DNA of 64,000 nucleotides, from contig NZ_APNH01000005.1 in assembly GCF_040361275.1 (NCBI RefSeq), positions 62,001 to 126,000 of the forward strand, given 5' to 3'. Origin of the DNA: Salinisphaera sp. T31B1 (GTDB lineage Bacteria > Pseudomonadota > Gammaproteobacteria > Nevskiales > Salinisphaeraceae). Made by a program: the position numbers and the translations under genes. The notes below the pieces were generated by a model that was not told the origin of the DNA, ran no database searches, and worked only from the letters and a program-made list of their open reading frames with translations. Of the stretch, positions 13,886 to 20,986 are shown in pieces. Each line of letters starts with the position of its first letter. Positions within the stretch are counted from its first letter, which is position 1.

Positions 13886-14731
13886 TCAGCGCGCCAGAAT
13901 ACGCGCCATGAACGCAGGCTGGGCGAACGCACCGTCGTGGATGGCTGGCGTGTAGTAGAAGGTCTCGAAGTCCGGCGCTGCCGCCGGACGGCCGAGCGGG
14001 CGGGCATCACGCAGCGCCAGCGTGGCCGACCACCAGCCGGTGGGATAACTCGGCTGCGGGAAACTCAGAAGATGGGTCTCGGCGAACCCTGCGCTGCGAA
14101 GTCCGCCGTGCATCTCGCCGATCAGCTCGCTGTGGACCAGCGGCGACTCGCTCTGCTGGACCAGCATGCCGCCCGGCCGCAGCACGCGGTGGCATTCGCG
14201 ATAGAAGGCCGCGTTGAACAACCCTTCAGCCGGACCGATCGGGTCGGTGCTGTCGATGATCACCAGGTCCACGGACGCATCGGGGGCGTTCGCCATCCAG
14301 GCCACGCCATCGGCGAACGCCAGGGTGGCACGCGGGTCGTCGTTGGCCTCGCACAGGGCCGGAAAATAGGTTTCGGCCACGCGGGTGACGCGTTCGTCGA
14401 TATCGATCTGGGTCACCGTGGCGACACCAGGATGCTTGAGGACTTCGCGCAGGGTGCCGCAGTCGCCGCCGCCGATGATCACCGCGTCGGCCACCTCGCC
14501 GTGGGCATACAGGGCAGGGTGCGTCATCATCTCGTGATAGACGAAGTTATCGCGATCGGTGAGCATCACCAGACCGTCGATGGTCAGCAATCGGCCGAAG
14601 GTCTCTGTCTCGTATACGGCGATGGTCTGATACTCGGACTGCTCCTCGTGGAGCTTGTCAACGATCTTGAGCGAAAACCCGAGCCCGAGCGTGTCGCTGG
14701 CTTCGGTATACCAATGCTGATCCAGTACCAT
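13886..14731 (-). CDS. speE: Spermidine synthase (polyamine aminopropyltransferase)
   Basis: SpeE transfers an aminopropyl group from decarboxylated SAM to putrescine. The 281-residue product shows QTIAVYETETFGRLLTIDG, YHEMMTHPAL, the SAM-binding IIGGGDCGTLREVLKH (GGGDCG at 87-92) and the catalytic IIDSTDPIGPAEGLF (Asp160, Asp163). AGGGAG precedes the ATG at 14731; a 39-codon extension is rejected. It is divergent from speA with 55 bp between, so both polyamine genes share a control region. No speB or speD is visible in the window. Confidence 0.95.
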   Translation of the reverse strand: MVLDQHWYTEASDTLGLGFSLKIVDKLHEEQSEYQTIAVYETETFGRLLTIDGLVMLTDRDNFVYHEMMTHPALYAHGEVADAVIIGGGDCGTLREVLKHPGVATVTQIDIDERVTRVAETYFPALCEANDDPRATLAFADGVAWMANAPDASVDLVIIDSTDPIGPAEGLFNAAFYRECHRVLRPGGMLVQQSESPLVHSELIGEMHGGLRSAGFAETHLLSFPQPSYPTGWWSATLALRDARPLGRPAAAPDFETFYYTPAIHDGAFAQPAFMARILAR

Positions 14732-14786
14732 GCAGCTCCCTTCGACGCCTGCAGCGCCTTGCGAATCCAGCGCGTGAGTATAAGTT

Positions 14787-16640
14787 ATGTCCGTATCCCG
14801 TACCCAAGCCGACTGGTCGATCGACGACGCCCGCGCGCTGTACCGCATCGCCGCCTGGGGTGAAGGCTATTTCGATATCAATGCCCGCGGCGCGGTCTCG
14901 GTCACGCCGGTGCCCGGTGGGCCGGCCATCGCGTTGGACGAGCTGACCGAGCAGATCAAGCGTGCCGGGCTGCGCCTGCCCGTGCTGGTTCGCTTCACCG
15001 ATATCCTCGGCGACCGTATCGACCGGCTGACGCGTGCGTTCGAGGACGCGCGCCGCCGGCATGACTACGATGGTCGTTATACGGTGGTCTACCCGGTCAA
15101 GGTCAACCAGCAGCGGGCCGTGGTCGAACAGCTGGTCAGTGCCGGTGGCGAGCGCGCCGGCCTGGAGGCCGGCAGCAAGCCGGAGCTCATGGCCGTACTG
15201 GCGCTGGCCGCGCCCGGCAGCACCATCGTGTGCAACGGCTACAAGGATCGTGCATTTCTGCGCCTGGCCCTGATCGGTCAGCAGCTGGGCCATCGCGTGT
15301 TCATCGTGGTCGAAAAGCCCTCCGAACTCGCACCCATCGCCGAGCTCGCCGATGAACTCGGGTTGCGGCCGGACCTGGGTCTGCGCGTGCGGCTGGCAAG
15401 CGTCGCCGCCGGCCACTGGCAGAACACCGGCGGCGAGAAATCCAAGTTCGGGCTCACCGCCGATCAGGTTGTCTCCGCGATGGCCGAACTCGAGCGCCTG
15501 GGCTATGCGGACTGTGTCCGCATGCTGCACGTGCACGTCGGCTCCCAGGTCGCCGACCATGCGGCACTGTCTCGTGCGATGGACGAAACCGCCCATCTGT
15601 ATCGCAGCCTGCGGGTGCTGGGAGCGCCGGTCGCCTGTGTCGATGTCGGCGGCGGGCTGGCCGTGGACTACGAAGGGCGCGGAGCGCGCTCGTTCTGCTC
15701 CATGAACTATGGCGTGCCCGACTATGCCGATGCGGTCGTCGCCGCGCTGGCGCGCGTGGCGCGGGGCTTCGATCTGCCCATGCCCGATATCATCAGCGAA
15801 TCCGGACGGGCTTTGACCGCGCACCATGCCGTGTTGCTGGCCCAGGTCATCGATAGCGAAACCCCTCAGCCGGTTGCCCCCGCGACTCTGGACGATACCC
15901 TGTCGGCAAGCGCACAGCTCGATCGCGTACAGGCCAGTCTGGCCGATGTGCAGGCCCGTTTTCTGGCCGGTGACGTCGGACTTGTCGAACGCGCACAAGC
16001 CGAACGCGAAGCGGCGGCCGTTCATCGTGCGCTGGCCGCGGTGGTCGCAAGCAGCGCCGACGACCGCGAGGCGGTGGCTGCAGCCGCCGACAAGCTGGCC
16101 GCCAAGTATTTCGTCAATTTCTCGGTCTTCCAGTCGGTCCCGGACGTGTGGGCGCTGGATCAGGTCTTTCCAGTGATGCCGCTGACCCGGCTCGACGAAG
16201 CGCCCACCCAGCGTGCACGTCTGTGCGATCTGACCTGCGACTCGGACGGCCGCCTGGATCGGTATGTTGATGAAGACGGCGTCGATACCTCGCTGCCGCT
16301 GCATCCGCTGCGCCCCGGTGAGCCCTACCGGCTGGGCATATTCATGGTGGGTGCCTATCAGGAGAACCTGGGCGACATGCACAACCTGTTCGGCGATACC
16401 GACGTGGTCAACGTCGAGGTCGAGCGAAGCGGTGACGGCCAAGGCTGGCGGCTGGCCGGTGCCGAGCAGGGTGACCGCGCCGACGAACTGTTGCGCTATG
16501 TGCACTTCGAGCCGGAAGCGCTGCGCGCAGCCTATCGCCGCAAGCTGGCCGCGGCGGGCTTGAGCACACGCGCCCGCCAGGACGCCGAGGCGCTGCTCGA
16601 AGCGGGCCTGGCCGGCTACACCTATCTGCTGGAATCCTGA
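14787..16640 (+). CDS. speA: Biosynthetic arginine decarboxylase
   Basis: SpeA is a PLP enzyme that makes agmatine from arginine, the first step of the ADC route to putrescine. The 617-residue length fits the family (about 630-660). The Schiff-base lysine is Lys105 in VVYPVKVNQQR; other family motifs are EAGSKPELMAVLALA, HVHVGSQVADH, CVDVGGGLAVDYEG and the C-terminal FMVGAYQENLGDMHNLFGDTD. The ATG at 14787 has little ribosome-site homology. The protein needs an agmatinase or agmatine deiminase partner, which is not here. It pairs by function with the divergent speE. Confidence 0.96.
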   Translation: MSVSRTQADWSIDDARALYRIAAWGEGYFDINARGAVSVTPVPGGPAIALDELTEQIKRAGLRLPVLVRFTDILGDRIDRLTRAFEDARRRHDYDGRYTVVYPVKVNQQRAVVEQLVSAGGERAGLEAGSKPELMAVLALAAPGSTIVCNGYKDRAFLRLALIGQQLGHRVFIVVEKPSELAPIAELADELGLRPDLGLRVRLASVAAGHWQNTGGEKSKFGLTADQVVSAMAELERLGYADCVRMLHVHVGSQVADHAALSRAMDETAHLYRSLRVLGAPVACVDVGGGLAVDYEGRGARSFCSMNYGVPDYADAVVAALARVARGFDLPMPDIISESGRALTAHHAVLLAQVIDSETPQPVAPATLDDTLSASAQLDRVQASLADVQARFLAGDVGLVERAQAEREAAAVHRALAAVVASSADDREAVAAAADKLAAKYFVNFSVFQSVPDVWALDQVFPVMPLTRLDEAPTQRARLCDLTCDSDGRLDRYVDEDGVDTSLPLHPLRPGEPYRLGIFMVGAYQENLGDMHNLFGDTDVVNVEVERSGDGQGWRLAGAEQGDRADELLRYVHFEPEALRAAYRRKLAAAGLSTRARQDAEALLEAGLAGYTYLLES

Positions 16641-16766
16641 GCGAACCGTTCAGCTGCCAAGGCCCCGGCCCGGGGGCAAGCTCGGACGCGGTCCTCGCAT
16701 ACCCCGGCCGGCTCGGGTGGACGGCGCCGCTTCGCCCCGGCGCCCGGGCGCGCCAGGCGACGCGTT

Positions 16767-19700
16767 CTATCGGCCACTGATGTCGAAGGTGGCCTGCGCC
16801 TGGGCGTCGGGCGAACGATCGACTACCGGTTCGGCAAGCGAGATACGATCCGGATTGACATCGCGGGCGGCCAGATAGTCGCGTACCGCCTCGCCCCGCT
16901 TGCGGGCCAGACCCTTGAGTTCGACCAAGTTGTCTTCGTCCACGGATGCGCCGTGGAATAGCGACATCTGGTCTGCGTCCCCGGGCACCGCATGGCCCTG
17001 AACGGTCAGATGCAGGTCCGGTTTGTCGCGCATGGCCTGGGCGATCCGACCGAGATACTGGCGATCCGCCGGGCGGATGTAATGCTTGCCCAGTTCGAAA
17101 CCTGCCGGCTTCGAGACCAGTGAACGGCCCAGATTGAGAACGGCGTTCTTGGCGCGATTGAGCAGACCCAGCGGCGAATAATCGCTCATGATCGCGGTAC
17201 GCAGGCCGGCCAGTACCGCTTCGCGGACCAGGTTCTTGATCGAGAAGTAGGGGTTGGTCACATCGCCCAGGATCAGGGTTTCGAAATTGATTAGGTCGTC
17301 CTGGCCGCGGACAAGCGCCAGCGCCGTGTCCAGCGATATCCCGAGCGCCACGTCGGTTTTGGCATGCGGGTCGTCCACGAGCCGGAAGTTCGACAGCGTG
17401 GTGTCCAGGTTGCCGTCGAGCTGGCCGGCGCTGGCCTCGAGATGAAGGGTGCCGTCGGCGACACCGTTGGCGATTCGGCGTCCGAGCGCGGCGTTGAGAT
17501 AGCCGGACAGCGGTTTCATCGCCAGCGACCGGAGCCAGGCGTCCAGATTCATATTCATGCCGCCGTTGGCCATCGGCGCGATCGTGCCGCGGCTGTCGAG
17601 ATGTCCGTAGGCGCCGACGTCCATTGCCAGCCGGTAGGTCGCACTCTGATCCAGCTGCGCGGTGTCGAGATCCTGAATGGCGAGATTGATGTTGCTGCCG
17701 CTGATCGCAACCGGCGGATCGACCGCCACATCGTTGAACATGAACACCGGCCCGGAGATCGCTACATCGCTGAAGGCGTAGCTGTTGGCGGGCCCGTCGG
17801 CGGCAGCACGCTTACCGGACCCGCTGGCGCCAGCGTCGTCGTCGTTGGAGCCGGCAAAGAACTCGGCCATGACGCCCATGCCCTGGCGGTCGCGGCGAAC
17901 ATGAATGCTGGCACCGTCCAGATCCAGCCGTGCCAGGCGATAGTCGCGCAGATCGTCCAACCGGAACTGGTCGGCGGTCGTGGTCACCGACTGCAGCACG
18001 GCTACATCGGAATCGGTATCGCCCAGCACGCGCACCCCGTGCGAGGTCAGCGAGTCGAGCCGGATCCGATCGAGGCCGTTAACGGACAGCCCGGCGGCAT
18101 GGGTCTGCAATGCGGCGACCCAAGGCGCCTGAATATCCGTATTCATCACCTTGAAATCGTGGCTGTCGATCTCGCCGGCCATGGTCAGTTTCAACGCGCT
18201 GCCGTCGGTCTGCGGTTGCTCGGCATAGCGACCGTCGTAGGCCAGGCGTGCGGCCGAGAGCGAAATGGCGGTTCCGGGCAGCGCCAGACCGGCATGGTCG
18301 GTGCTCAGCTGGCCTTGGGCAGTGCGAGCCAGCAGCGGACCGAAGTCAGTGCTGGTCGTACCCTGCCAGTTCAGGTGGTCGGCCGTGAACGTGGCGCTGT
18401 CGACGATCTCGAAAGACAGATCGCGGGTGTTCAGCTGGCCATCGGTCGCCAGCGTCGGTGCCGAGGCGCCGATCCGGGTATCGGTGGTTCCCTTGAACGC
18501 GATCGGCCCACTGGCCAGCGTCACGCCTGCCGGCACGCGGCTCGACAGCGCCGCGGTGTCGAGCTGTCCGTCGGTGTGGACTGTTTTCGTGCCGGTACCC
18601 AGTTTGGTACGGGTGGCGCCGTCGAACCGTACTTCGTCGCTGGACAGTTGCAGCCCGTCAGGCACGTCGATGGCAAACCCGTGCAGGCCGAGCGCGCCCT
18701 GACTGTCGACCTCGCTGGGCTGGGTCAGATCGAGCTTCACACGGCCTTTCCAGTTCAGACGCTCGGCCCGGGTTGCGGTGCCATCGGCGGTGACGATCGC
18801 CTGGCGCTGGCCGGTGAGTGTGCCATCGGTCGTCAGGCGGCGGCCGTCGCCAGTCAGTACGATCGTGGTCGTGCCATCCCAGGCGCCCTTGGCCTGGCGC
18901 AGGGTCACGCCATCCGGGTAGGCGATCTCGAACGCGGTGACGTCGATCTTGGCATCGACCGAGACGGTATCGGCACCGGCCGGCGGAGCGGGTGTCGTTT
19001 TCGCCTGGCGCGGCGACGCGCTAGGCATGGAGGTCAAACCCAACCGTGGGGCCCAGGCCAGCCCATCGTCGGATGCCGGCTCCGGCGCGCCAGCGGCGTC
19101 GGCGGTTGGCCCGGTTTTGCTTGATGCGGCGGAACTGGCGACCGGGCCCAGCAGATGCAACCGGATTCCGCCCTGCCATTCGAATCGATCGCTCGACAAC
19201 GCCGGGCCGCCGGCCAGTTCCAGCCGCGAATCCTGCCATGTGGTCTGTCCGTCGATCTGGATGTCCAGTCCCGCATCGGGGCCGTAGGTCAGGTCGATGG
19301 CCTGATGGCCGTCGAGCGTTCCGGTGAGGCGCTCGAGGCGGCCGGCCTGGGTGATGGGTGATAGCAGATCGAGCGCGAACTGTTCGGTGGTGATCTCGAA
19401 ATGCGCGCTTACGCGCCGGCCGAACGGCGTGACGCGGCCCTGCAGGCGGATGCGGCTGTCGCCGACGCTCAGATCGGCGTCCAGGGGCACGTCGTTGTCC
19501 GGTTCCCAGCTGACCACGTCGCGGGCATTGGACTGGTTGAACACCAGTTCGCGCTCCACGGCGGGAAAATCGTCGGTCGCCGGTTGAGAATAGCGCAGGC
19601 TCAGCCCGCCGATCCCCAGTTGCTCAATGGCGATGCCCCAGTTCAGGGAACCGCCGCTCGGCTGGTCCGAAAGCACCGTGATGCCGCCGACCCGAACGGC

Positions 19701-20045
19701 GTTGTCGGCGGTCCGGCGCACGTCGAGGATTGCGTCAGCGACGGCCAGGCGGGTCACCCGCAGCTGTTTGGACAACAGCGGGAGGTAGTCGATGGATATA
19801 TCGAGATGACCGATCCGGAAGCCTTCATCGCGCTGGGTTTGCCCGGTCAGACCGTCATAGGCGATCGTGCCGGTCAGCAGGTTCACGTCGACGTTGTCGA
19901 TCTGGGCGTCCACGCCGGCTTGGGCCAGATAATACAGCGTGAGCTCGCGCGCGATCAGCGGTGTGGCCGCCAGCAGCGCGGCACCGAGCAGGGCGATCGC
20001 TACAACGAAGATGAGTACGCGGCGTATGCCCCGTGAAAGCGTCAT
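16767..20045 (-). CDS. AsmA-like / DUF748 envelope protein with internal repeats
   Basis: A 1092-residue protein anchored by one N-terminal span (about 9-31), the rest predicted periplasmic. The N-terminus (YLAQAGVDAQIDNVDVNLLTG) and C-terminus (about 990-1080: FELGKHYIRPADRQYLGRIAQAM, then an OmpA-like peptidoglycan-interaction-style segment LTVQGHAVPGD) match the DUF748 family within the AsmA/TamB superfamily of inter-membrane lipid-transfer bridges. Residues 377-607 hold about five copies of a 41-44-residue beta-rich module. A Ser/Pro/Ala-rich linker at 300-360 interrupts the repeats. It would form a grooved rod spanning the periplasm; lipid transport is inference from the family. It is divergent from the oxidoreductase gene at 20117. 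Confidence 0.8.
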   Translation of the reverse strand: MTLSRGIRRVLIFVVAIALLGAALLAATPLIARELTLYYLAQAGVDAQIDNVDVNLLTGTIAYDGLTGQTQRDEGFRIGHLDISIDYLPLLSKQLRVTRLAVADAILDVRRTADNAVRVGGITVLSDQPSGGSLNWGIAIEQLGIGGLSLRYSQPATDDFPAVERELVFNQSNARDVVSWEPDNDVPLDADLSVGDSRIRLQGRVTPFGRRVSAHFEITTEQFALDLLSPITQAGRLERLTGTLDGHQAIDLTYGPDAGLDIQIDGQTTWQDSRLELAGGPALSSDRFEWQGGIRLHLLGPVASSAASSKTGPTADAAGAPEPASDDGLAWAPRLGLTSMPSASPRQAKTTPAPPAGADTVSVDAKIDVTAFEIAYPDGVTLRQAKGAWDGTTTIVLTGDGRRLTTDGTLTGQRQAIVTADGTATRAERLNWKGRVKLDLTQPSEVDSQGALGLHGFAIDVPDGLQLSSDEVRFDGATRTKLGTGTKTVHTDGQLDTAALSSRVPAGVTLASGPIAFKGTTDTRIGASAPTLATDGQLNTRDLSFEIVDSATFTADHLNWQGTTSTDFGPLLARTAQGQLSTDHAGLALPGTAISLSAARLAYDGRYAEQPQTDGSALKLTMAGEIDSHDFKVMNTDIQAPWVAALQTHAAGLSVNGLDRIRLDSLTSHGVRVLGDTDSDVAVLQSVTTTADQFRLDDLRDYRLARLDLDGASIHVRRDRQGMGVMAEFFAGSNDDDAGASGSGKRAAADGPANSYAFSDVAISGPVFMFNDVAVDPPVAISGSNINLAIQDLDTAQLDQSATYRLAMDVGAYGHLDSRGTIAPMANGGMNMNLDAWLRSLAMKPLSGYLNAALGRRIANGVADGTLHLEASAGQLDGNLDTTLSNFRLVDDPHAKTDVALGISLDTALALVRGQDDLINFETLILGDVTNPYFSIKNLVREAVLAGLRTAIMSDYSPLGLLNRAKNAVLNLGRSLVSKPAGFELGKHYIRPADRQYLGRIAQAMRDKPDLHLTVQGHAVPGDADQMSLFHGASVDEDNLVELKGLARKRGEAVRDYLAARDVNPDRISLAEPVVDRSPDAQAQATFDISGR
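18225..18917 (-). repeat. Tandem ~43-residue protein repeats inside the AsmA-like gene
   Basis: Residues 377-607 contain units that each run P-x-G-(V/L)-x-L, then a (W/F)-x-G-(T/A)-T box, then T-D-G-x-L. Examples begin PDGVTLRQAKGAWDGTTT (377), PDGLQLSSDEVRFDGATR (462), PAGVTLASGPIAFKGTTD (505) and VDSATFTADHLNWQGTTS (548). The last three start exactly 43 residues apart. The copies are diverged at the DNA level, so this is an old protein repeat. Confidence 0.75.
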
Positions 20046-20116
20046 GAAATGGTCTGATTGGCCGCGCGGACTACAGACCTTATCATCGGGGCTTCGTTTT
20101 CCTCATCACAGATGCC

Positions 20117-20986
20117 ATGAAAAGTGCATTCATCGGTCTTGGCGGCATGGGCCAGGGTATGGCCGCAAACCTGCAGGCCGCGGGCCTGCTGAGCGCGGTC
20201 TACAACCGAACCCACGAGAAGGCCGAGGCATTCGCGCGCGAGCATGACGTCAAAGCGGTACGCACCCCGGCCGAGACGCTCGCCGAAGCCGAGATCATCG
20301 TCATTTGCGTGAGCGCCGATGACGATGTTCTGGCGATGGTCGACGAGATCGCCGACCAGCTGACCGATCGCCATGTCGTCATCGATTGCTCCACCGTCGC
20401 CAGCGACACTGCGCGTGAAGCCGCCCGCCGGGTGGCCAGGAACGGCGCCGGCTTCGTCGACGCGCCGGTCTCCGGCGGCACCGAGGGGGCGAAGAACGGC
20501 ACGCTGTCGATCATGGTGGGCGCTGACGACGCCGTATTCGAGCGCGTCATGCCGGTGCTCGACGCCATGGGTGCCAAGATCACCCATATGGGCGGCGTGG
20601 GAACCGGTCAGGCGACCAAGGCGGTCAACCAGATCCTGTGTGCCGGCATCAATCAGGCCGTCTGCGAGGGTCTGCGGTTCGGCGCAGCGCTGGACCTGCC
20701 ACTGGACAAGGTCGTGGACGTGGTCGGTTCCGGGGCGGCGGGCAACTGGTTCGTCAACCATCGCGGCAAGACGATGGTCCAGGATATCTTCGAGCCGGGC
20801 TTCAAGCTCAAGCACCATCACAAGGACCTGGGCATCTGCCTGCACATGGCCGAACTCAACGGCGGCACGCTGCCGCTGTCGGCCAAGACCCGCGAGGAAT
20901 ACGCGCGGCTGATGGAGCAGGGCCACGGTGACGAGGATATCTCGGCGCTATACCGCCTGCGTAGCGACCTGTTCCAAAAAGACTGA
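20117..20986 (+). CDS. 3-hydroxyisobutyrate dehydrogenase family oxidoreductase (GarR/MmsB-like)
   Basis: A 289-residue beta-hydroxyacid dehydrogenase. The Rossmann motif is IGLGGMGQGMAANL (6-19), the substrate signature is FVDAPVSGGTEGAKNGTLSIMVG (113-135), and the catalytic lysine is Lys168 in GTGQATKAVNQIL. Asn30-Arg31 after beta-2 (YNRTHEKAE) suggests NADPH preference. Likely activities are 3-hydroxyisobutyrate dehydrogenase or 2-hydroxy-3-oxopropionate (tartronate semialdehyde) reductase; sequence alone does not decide. It is transcribed away from the AsmA-like gene and ends before a strong hairpin. Confidence 0.88.
   Translation: MKSAFIGLGGMGQGMAANLQAAGLLSAVYNRTHEKAEAFAREHDVKAVRTPAETLAEAEIIVICVSADDDVLAMVDEIADQLTDRHVVIDCSTVASDTAREAARRVARNGAGFVDAPVSGGTEGAKNGTLSIMVGADDAVFERVMPVLDAMGAKITHMGGVGTGQATKAVNQILCAGINQAVCEGLRFGAALDLPLDKVVDVVGSGAAGNWFVNHRGKTMVQDIFEPGFKLKHHHKDLGICLHMAELNGGTLPLSAKTREEYARLMEQGHGDEDISALYRLRSDLFQKD

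Follow-up and report, generated by a model that had tools for sequence, protein, structure and literature searches.

How phospholipids pass across the periplasm is an open question, as is whether the length of an AsmA-like bridge matters for this passage. The window, i.e., the whole stretch of 64,000 nucleotides from Salinisphaera sp. T31B1 that was analysed, was found to contain a gene by which the second question is raised in a countable form; in its protein, a regular array of 43-residue units stands in the middle, and the original prediction had proposed that the length of the protein can be tuned by adding units. Our reading, to which a probability of about 0.72 is given, is that the gene encodes a membrane-anchored periplasmic DUF748 protein whose array of beta-hairpins would extend a lipid groove and would have grown by whole units.

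The gene and the outer regions of its protein were placed as follows.

16767 to 20045, minus strand: DUF748 (AsmA-like) gene, an open frame of 1,092 amino acids with a PF05359 match
19962 to 20018, minus strand: N-terminal hydrophobic segment, residues about 10-28, at the hydropathy peak
16836 to 17099, minus strand: OmpA-like C-terminal region, residues 983-1070, with PF00691 below its cut-off

The Pfam model PF05359 (DUF748) was found to match residues 6-1022 with 150.4 bits (E 8e-44) at a curated cut-off of 50, by which the predicted AsmA/DUF748 assignment was borne out. The protein contained a single strong hydropathy peak, with a 19-residue mean of 2.79 at residue 10 and a maximum of 1.21 among the segments starting past residue 60. 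Residues about 10-28 form a likely membrane anchor, and the single N-terminal anchor by which AsmA-like bridge proteins are recognised is predicted here. Residues 983-1070 reached 26.8 bits with PF00691 (E 6.9e-06) at a cut-off of 27.2, so that OmpA-like membership was not assigned. When a profile of the kin was compared with the PDB sequences, OmpA-family chains were matched weakly at the C terminus (best E 0.00075) and all other matches were at chance level. If the OmpA-like region still binds peptidoglycan, the outer end of the bridge would be tied to the cell wall. Within the class, the top DUF748 proteins scored 500-930 bits with the Pfam model against 141-150 bits for the window's protein, and because of this low score the latter seems to belong to another DUF748 group. 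The window's genome contained three further DUF748 matches, all weak and under the cut-off, and no second copy of the protein.

Six units, each about 43 residues in length, were found in residues 278-590, and an insert splits the first of them. The original prediction had named three units and two or more diverged ones before residue 462; two full units and one split unit were found there with the unit profile, and therefore six are counted.

18918 to 19214, minus strand: unit 1, residues 278-376, split by the insert; first half by profile, second half by eye
18978 to 19145, minus strand: residues 301-356, a low-complexity insert of 56 residues within the unit 1 loop, recognised by composition
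18792 to 18917, minus strand: unit 2, residues 377-418; profile 28.5 bits (match 377-415)
18663 to 18791, minus strand: unit 3, residues 419-461; profile 32.1 bits (match 420-461)
18534 to 18662, minus strand: unit 4, residues 462-504; profile 33.2 bits (match 462-503), within the AlphaFold2 model
18405 to 18533, minus strand: unit 5, residues 505-547; profile 32.8 bits (match 505-546), within the AlphaFold2 model
18276 to 18404, minus strand: unit 6, residues 548-590; profile 36.9 bits (match 549-588), the last unit called by the profile
18147 to 18275, minus strand: residues 591-633, past the end of the array; unit-like but strongly diverged, seen in the sequence

The unit profile was seeded with four units of the window and iterated over a set of 19 proteins that contained the window's own. 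With it, the proposed check by repeat profiles returned a clear signal of five full units, each with at least 28 bits. The first half of unit 1 was matched at residues 279-298 (8.5 bits, E 0.0016), and the second half (about 357-376), behind the insert, was assigned by eye. The insert is composed of A/P/S/T/G to 73%; no unit match was found inside its 56 residues with the unit profile, and it may conceivably hold a decayed seventh unit. The first units of 14 other Salinisphaera arrays contained a loop without a comparable insert. Residues 591-633 resemble a further unit that has diverged strongly; in the window's protein the unit profile made no call there. A half-unit match at residues 865-884 (E 0.042) was found to have counterparts near residues 750-930 in other proteins; these C-terminal matches cover the first half of the profile only (up to position 28 of 43 in L049 and L050) and were excluded from the unit counts, as were other fragments of less than 25 model positions.

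The top ungapped self-match of the protein was found at offset 43 with a score of 127 (residues 441-526, 29 of 86 identical), followed by a second at offset 128 with a score of 120 (from residues 356-462, 31 of 107 identical). Shuffling yielded no more than 54 for the whole protein (200 shuffles) and 52 for the region (500 shuffles), and the units begin at residues 462, 505 and 548 as had been predicted. The motifs predicted for each unit held in two of the three: unit 462 contained PDGLQL, FDGAT and TDGQL, and unit 505 contained PAGVTL, FKGTT and TDGQL, whereas unit 548 has kept WQGTT and lacks PxG and TDG (VDSATF, AQGQL). Tandem Repeats Finder reported no DNA-level repeat within the array, and therefore the duplication is not recent; over 16700-20100 the program returned two short low-score runs, the one located outside the gene, the other upstream of the array.

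The alignment of 89 units was found to contain hydrophobic residues (LIVFMWY) at 816 of 1489 places on one face and at 54 of 1598 on the other, and charged or polar residues (DEKRNQH) at 55 of 1489 places on the hydrophobic face and at 956 of 1598 on the other, the faces having been chosen after the column pattern had been seen. The alternation of hydrophobic and polar residues breaks at unit positions 9-10, 22-27 and 37-38. An AlphaFold2 model of three units (residues 462-589; pLDDT 70.2, pTM 0.58), built on an alignment whose six rows were separate repeat slices of the window's protein and two relatives, contained strands at 5-8, 11-20, 26-36 and 39-43, followed by 47-51, 54-64, 70-86 and 90-106. 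It was the one good model of five in the run (70.2 against 51.2, 48.0, 45.8 and 40.3) and is poor past about residue 110 of 128. Because the strand breaks of the model match the breaks of the face pattern, it is supported that each unit consists of two long strands which are kinked or broken at two constant places. For these three units, at moderate confidence, the model did not refute the repeats of the original prediction. The full-length AlphaFold2 prediction, made from three sequences, reached a pLDDT of 32.8 and was left unused; the position of the array relative to the groove is not visible in it.

Foldseek found no PDB match at E 0.001 or better, the best being 0.078. With VIA, the best Z was a weak 5.5, and 11 of the 50 matches listed were Lpt-bridge chains (LptA, LptC, LptH and the LptDE and LptBFGC complexes among the matches listed), with unrelated enzymes and outer-membrane barrels scoring alike. 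None of the chains listed bore an AsmA-family name, from which nothing is concluded, and Lpt-bridge membership is not claimed on these weak matches.

The orthologues of Salinisphaera differ by whole units. Seven units were found with the unit profile in the proteins of six genomes (G003, G004, G006, G008, G011 and G012) and five units in eight proteins (G001, both copies of G002, G005, G007, G009, G010 and G013), the sample containing one genome per species. A protein of 798 residues from a genome of the same order and another family (G018) contained one unit, so that the regular countable module of the original prediction was found in numbers of five, six or seven in the genus and of one in this homologue. 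In three remoter DUF748 proteins covered by this profile search (L046-L048) no unit was found; L042 and L043 repeat the genes L050 and L049 and were dropped from the counts. The array was found to measure 215-217 residues with five units, 294-306 residues with seven units and 312 residues in the window, the 56-residue insert included, and array lengths are near-integer multiples of 43. Complete Salinisphaera proteins of this gene contained 994-1123 residues. For the comparisons of tree, identity and length, the unit borders were those of the profile matches, with the ends adjusted manually so that neighbouring units meet. The G003 protein has seven profile units, and its plain self-match scored 67, barely more than the 63 obtained in 20 shuffles.

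The gene speA and/or a hydroxyisobutyrate-dehydrogenase-like gene was found beside the DUF748 gene at 13 of the 14 other Salinisphaera loci examined, and therefore the unit counts compare orthologues. Both neighbours were absent at the second copy of G002 (L033) and at the G018 locus. Compared with the window's, the DUF748 proteins were 38-48% identical over the best stretch, and speA and the dehydrogenase 72-84%. The genes speE, speA, DUF748 and the hydroxyisobutyrate-dehydrogenase-like gene (13886-20986 of the window) were observed to be linked across the genus. The second copy of G002 (L033:2059-5043) encodes 994 residues with five units and lacks the usual neighbours, the syntenic copy being contained in L032.

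Beyond the genus, the unit alignment was found to match 15 of 85 genomes of the order, i.e., the 14 Salinisphaera genomes and G018, followed by 4 of 369 genomes of the class sample, i.e., three Salinisphaera and G377, where an 826-residue frame contained one unit. The three genomes of the same family but of other genera (G014-G016) contained no unit match. The 14 Salinisphaera genomes had 2 to 6 unit matches each at E 0.001, and more than one match per genome was found only in them among the 85 order and 369 class genomes. DUF748 itself was above the cut-off in 147 of 229 class genomes. Outside Salinisphaera, 33 of 35 scored rows measured at most 967 residues and none of the 35 had more than two profile units, in a set where some genes stand twice and a few frames are cut by contig or locus ends; because of these shorter proteins with at most two units, the long array seems, within this sampling, to be particular to Salinisphaera. 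No match was found among 72,556 plasmid records searched for horizontal spread.

The age of the units was read from their identities, averaged over the five-unit and the seven-unit proteins with the window's kept apart. Units at the same position of different proteins had a mean identity of 41.6% (five units) and 44.7% (seven units), units at non-corresponding positions in different proteins 20.9% and 24.4%, and units within one protein 20.2% and 24.7%, respectively. Since same-position units are more alike across species than the units within a protein, the duplications predate most of the sampled species splits. Units 4 and 5 of the window were 42% identical and one pair of G008 44%; these pairs were not read as recent, and a recent duplication was rejected. 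Unit 6 of the window was found to pair with the last unit in 14 of 14 other Salinisphaera arrays (29-48% identical), and units 1-5 had no steady partner among the five- and seven-unit arrays. Close species have the same unit number. In the flank tree, the backbone was unresolved, and all eight five-unit rows were placed to one side of a branch supported at 63/100; grouping the six seven-unit rows was not rejected (p 0.359), nor was the same group plus the window (p 0.405). The fewest unit-number changes on this tree were three over 16 rows, which is the minimum for four states. Of the tuning that had been proposed, a whole-unit change of length on the evolutionary scale is supported; present-day tuning by the addition of units is not, as the divergence is old, the units having diverged before the close species of equal unit number, and the length of YhdP is constant.

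The mechanism that we propose begins with a protein that would be anchored in the inner membrane with its body in the periplasm. The array in the middle would consist of 43-residue beta-hairpins, each built from two long, kinked strands and hydrophobic on one face but polar on the other, and the hairpins would lie side by side in an extended one-sided hydrophobic sheet. This sheet would most likely be the floor of a lipid-holding groove leading from the inner toward the outer membrane, and the protein, judged by analogy, probably helps to carry lipids, presumably phospholipids, between the two. Units would have been added to an ancestor with one recognisable unit before the divergence of the sampled Salinisphaera species, after which separate branches would have settled at five, six or seven. 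Beta-strands are spaced by about 0.47 nm, and therefore each unit of two strands would lengthen the groove by about 2 x 0.47 nm, or close to 1 nm; five and seven units would differ by ~2 nm, and the array would add some 4-6 nm over the one-unit relative.

That the array lengthens a groove is drawn from the analogy with AsmA-like proteins, including EpaF, and the hairpins could instead form a flap, a side sheet or an elaboration facing a partner, with a length near neutral, which we hold to be unlikely. The array does accept change: among the other Salinisphaera proteins of equal unit number, its mean identity was 42.7% against 61.4% for the C-terminal part and was the lower of the two in 42 of 43 pairs, the window's array tolerates the 56-residue insert, and kin with one or no recognisable unit are found in many genera. 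The N-terminal part, however, is almost equally variable (46.2%), with the array lower in only 25 of the 43 pairs; close species have kept equal unit numbers, and the one-sided hydrophobic pattern over both strands is what a lipid-facing sheet requires.

A unit number that follows the width of the periplasm, with more units where it is wider, is judged quite improbable. It would agree with the variation in whole steps and with a hypothesis published for eukaryotic bridge proteins, in which the number of domains matches the gap (PMC7613979), and the three longest TamB open frames (1424, 1498 and 1498) all occur in seven-unit species; these lengths run from stop to stop and possibly contain untranslated upstream codons. 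The TamB frames of the other 11 of 14 genomes, however, measured 1304-1343, three seven-unit species (1312-1320) among them, and YhdP, also presumed to span the periplasm, measured 1257-1277 residues in the 12 genomes where a single whole match was found and was unrelated to five or seven units; since its length would be expected to shift with the unit number if width were the driver, this speaks against a simple tuning to periplasm width. That there is no special module at all, only the vague strand-turn periodicity usual in AsmA-type proteins, is very improbable indeed, for although one or two weak unit matches in some DUF748 kin make the unit itself ordinary for the family and 8 of 31 such kin beat the best of their own 20 shuffles, the other 23 stay within theirs, the self-match here is 127 against at most 54, and more than one unit match per genome was confined to the 14 Salinisphaera genomes of the order and class searches.

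The closest characterised member of the family is EpaF (PA4735) of Pseudomonas aeruginosa, with which PF05359 is shared. Like the window's protein, EpaF has an N-terminal helix, a similar size (1,088 residues) and an elongated beta-rich predicted structure, and it belongs to a set of four AsmA-like proteins that are redundantly essential in that species (PMC10900882). The window's protein, compared here with a description of EpaF, seems by its lower Pfam score to belong to another DUF748 group. YhdP, TamB and YdbH of E. coli are alike in their inner-membrane anchor and long beta-rich periplasmic part and have been proposed as phospholipid conduits, and the prevailing view of AsmA-like proteins is that lipid tails lie in an extended, one-sided groove between the membranes (both from PMC8593681); these three differ from the window's protein in their Pfam families. 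DUF748 is also mentioned in PMC4494059. A literature search found no paper combining Salinisphaera with AsmA, although other wording could be missed by it, and the titles and abstracts of the matches listed contained no repeat arrays in AsmA proteins.

The repeating-beta-groove module is formed by five strands and a loop and is larger than the Salinisphaera unit (~43 residues and two long strands in a model of moderate confidence). In the eukaryotic proteins VPS13 and ATG2, length is set by the number of repeated modules and duplication occurs in the middle of the protein, as here; the gain in VPS13C/D is of about 500 residues, compared with one 43-residue hairpin in Salinisphaera (PMC7613979). 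Our verdict is that the array represents a stepwise, clade-specific lengthening of a putative lipid bridge whose kind is already known, which would be a bacterial parallel, with a much smaller step, to the growth of VPS13-type bridges by internal duplication. Orthologues with five, six and seven countable hairpins at one gene position are natural length variants, and the removal of a single 43-residue unit is suggested by the array as a clean test of groove length.

Self-comparison of 31 DUF748 proteins from outside Salinisphaera placed 8 above the best of their own 20 shuffles, mostly slightly, and therefore some self-similarity is usual in the family. Stronger signals were found at offset 83 in L144 (G274, 1,230 residues; score 71 compared with 47 in 20 shuffles; additional offsets of 96 and 179), at offset 185 in L148 (G332, 916 residues; 167 against 41) and at offset 139 in L086 (G170, 1,200 residues, a high-scoring DUF748 protein; 171 against 45), followed by a weak one at offset 46 in L115 (G288; 60 against 51). 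The duplications of L086, L144, L148 and L115 are apparently independent of the Salinisphaera array. Among the loci returned, this pattern suggests that growth by duplicated groove segments arose more than once. That DUF748 bridges lengthen by whole beta-strand modules (single hairpins in the case of Salinisphaera), independently in the lineages of Salinisphaera, G274, G332 and G170, is offered tentatively and at somewhat less than even odds; if true, the family would hold a natural series of grooves of stepwise length, in which the required length of a bridge could be asked for directly.

The window's genome was found to contain its own matches to TamB and YhdP and no match to YdbH. The stop-to-stop TamB frames at L160, L164 and L165 (G003, G011 and G012) were found to be about 80-195 codons longer than those of the other 11 genomes.
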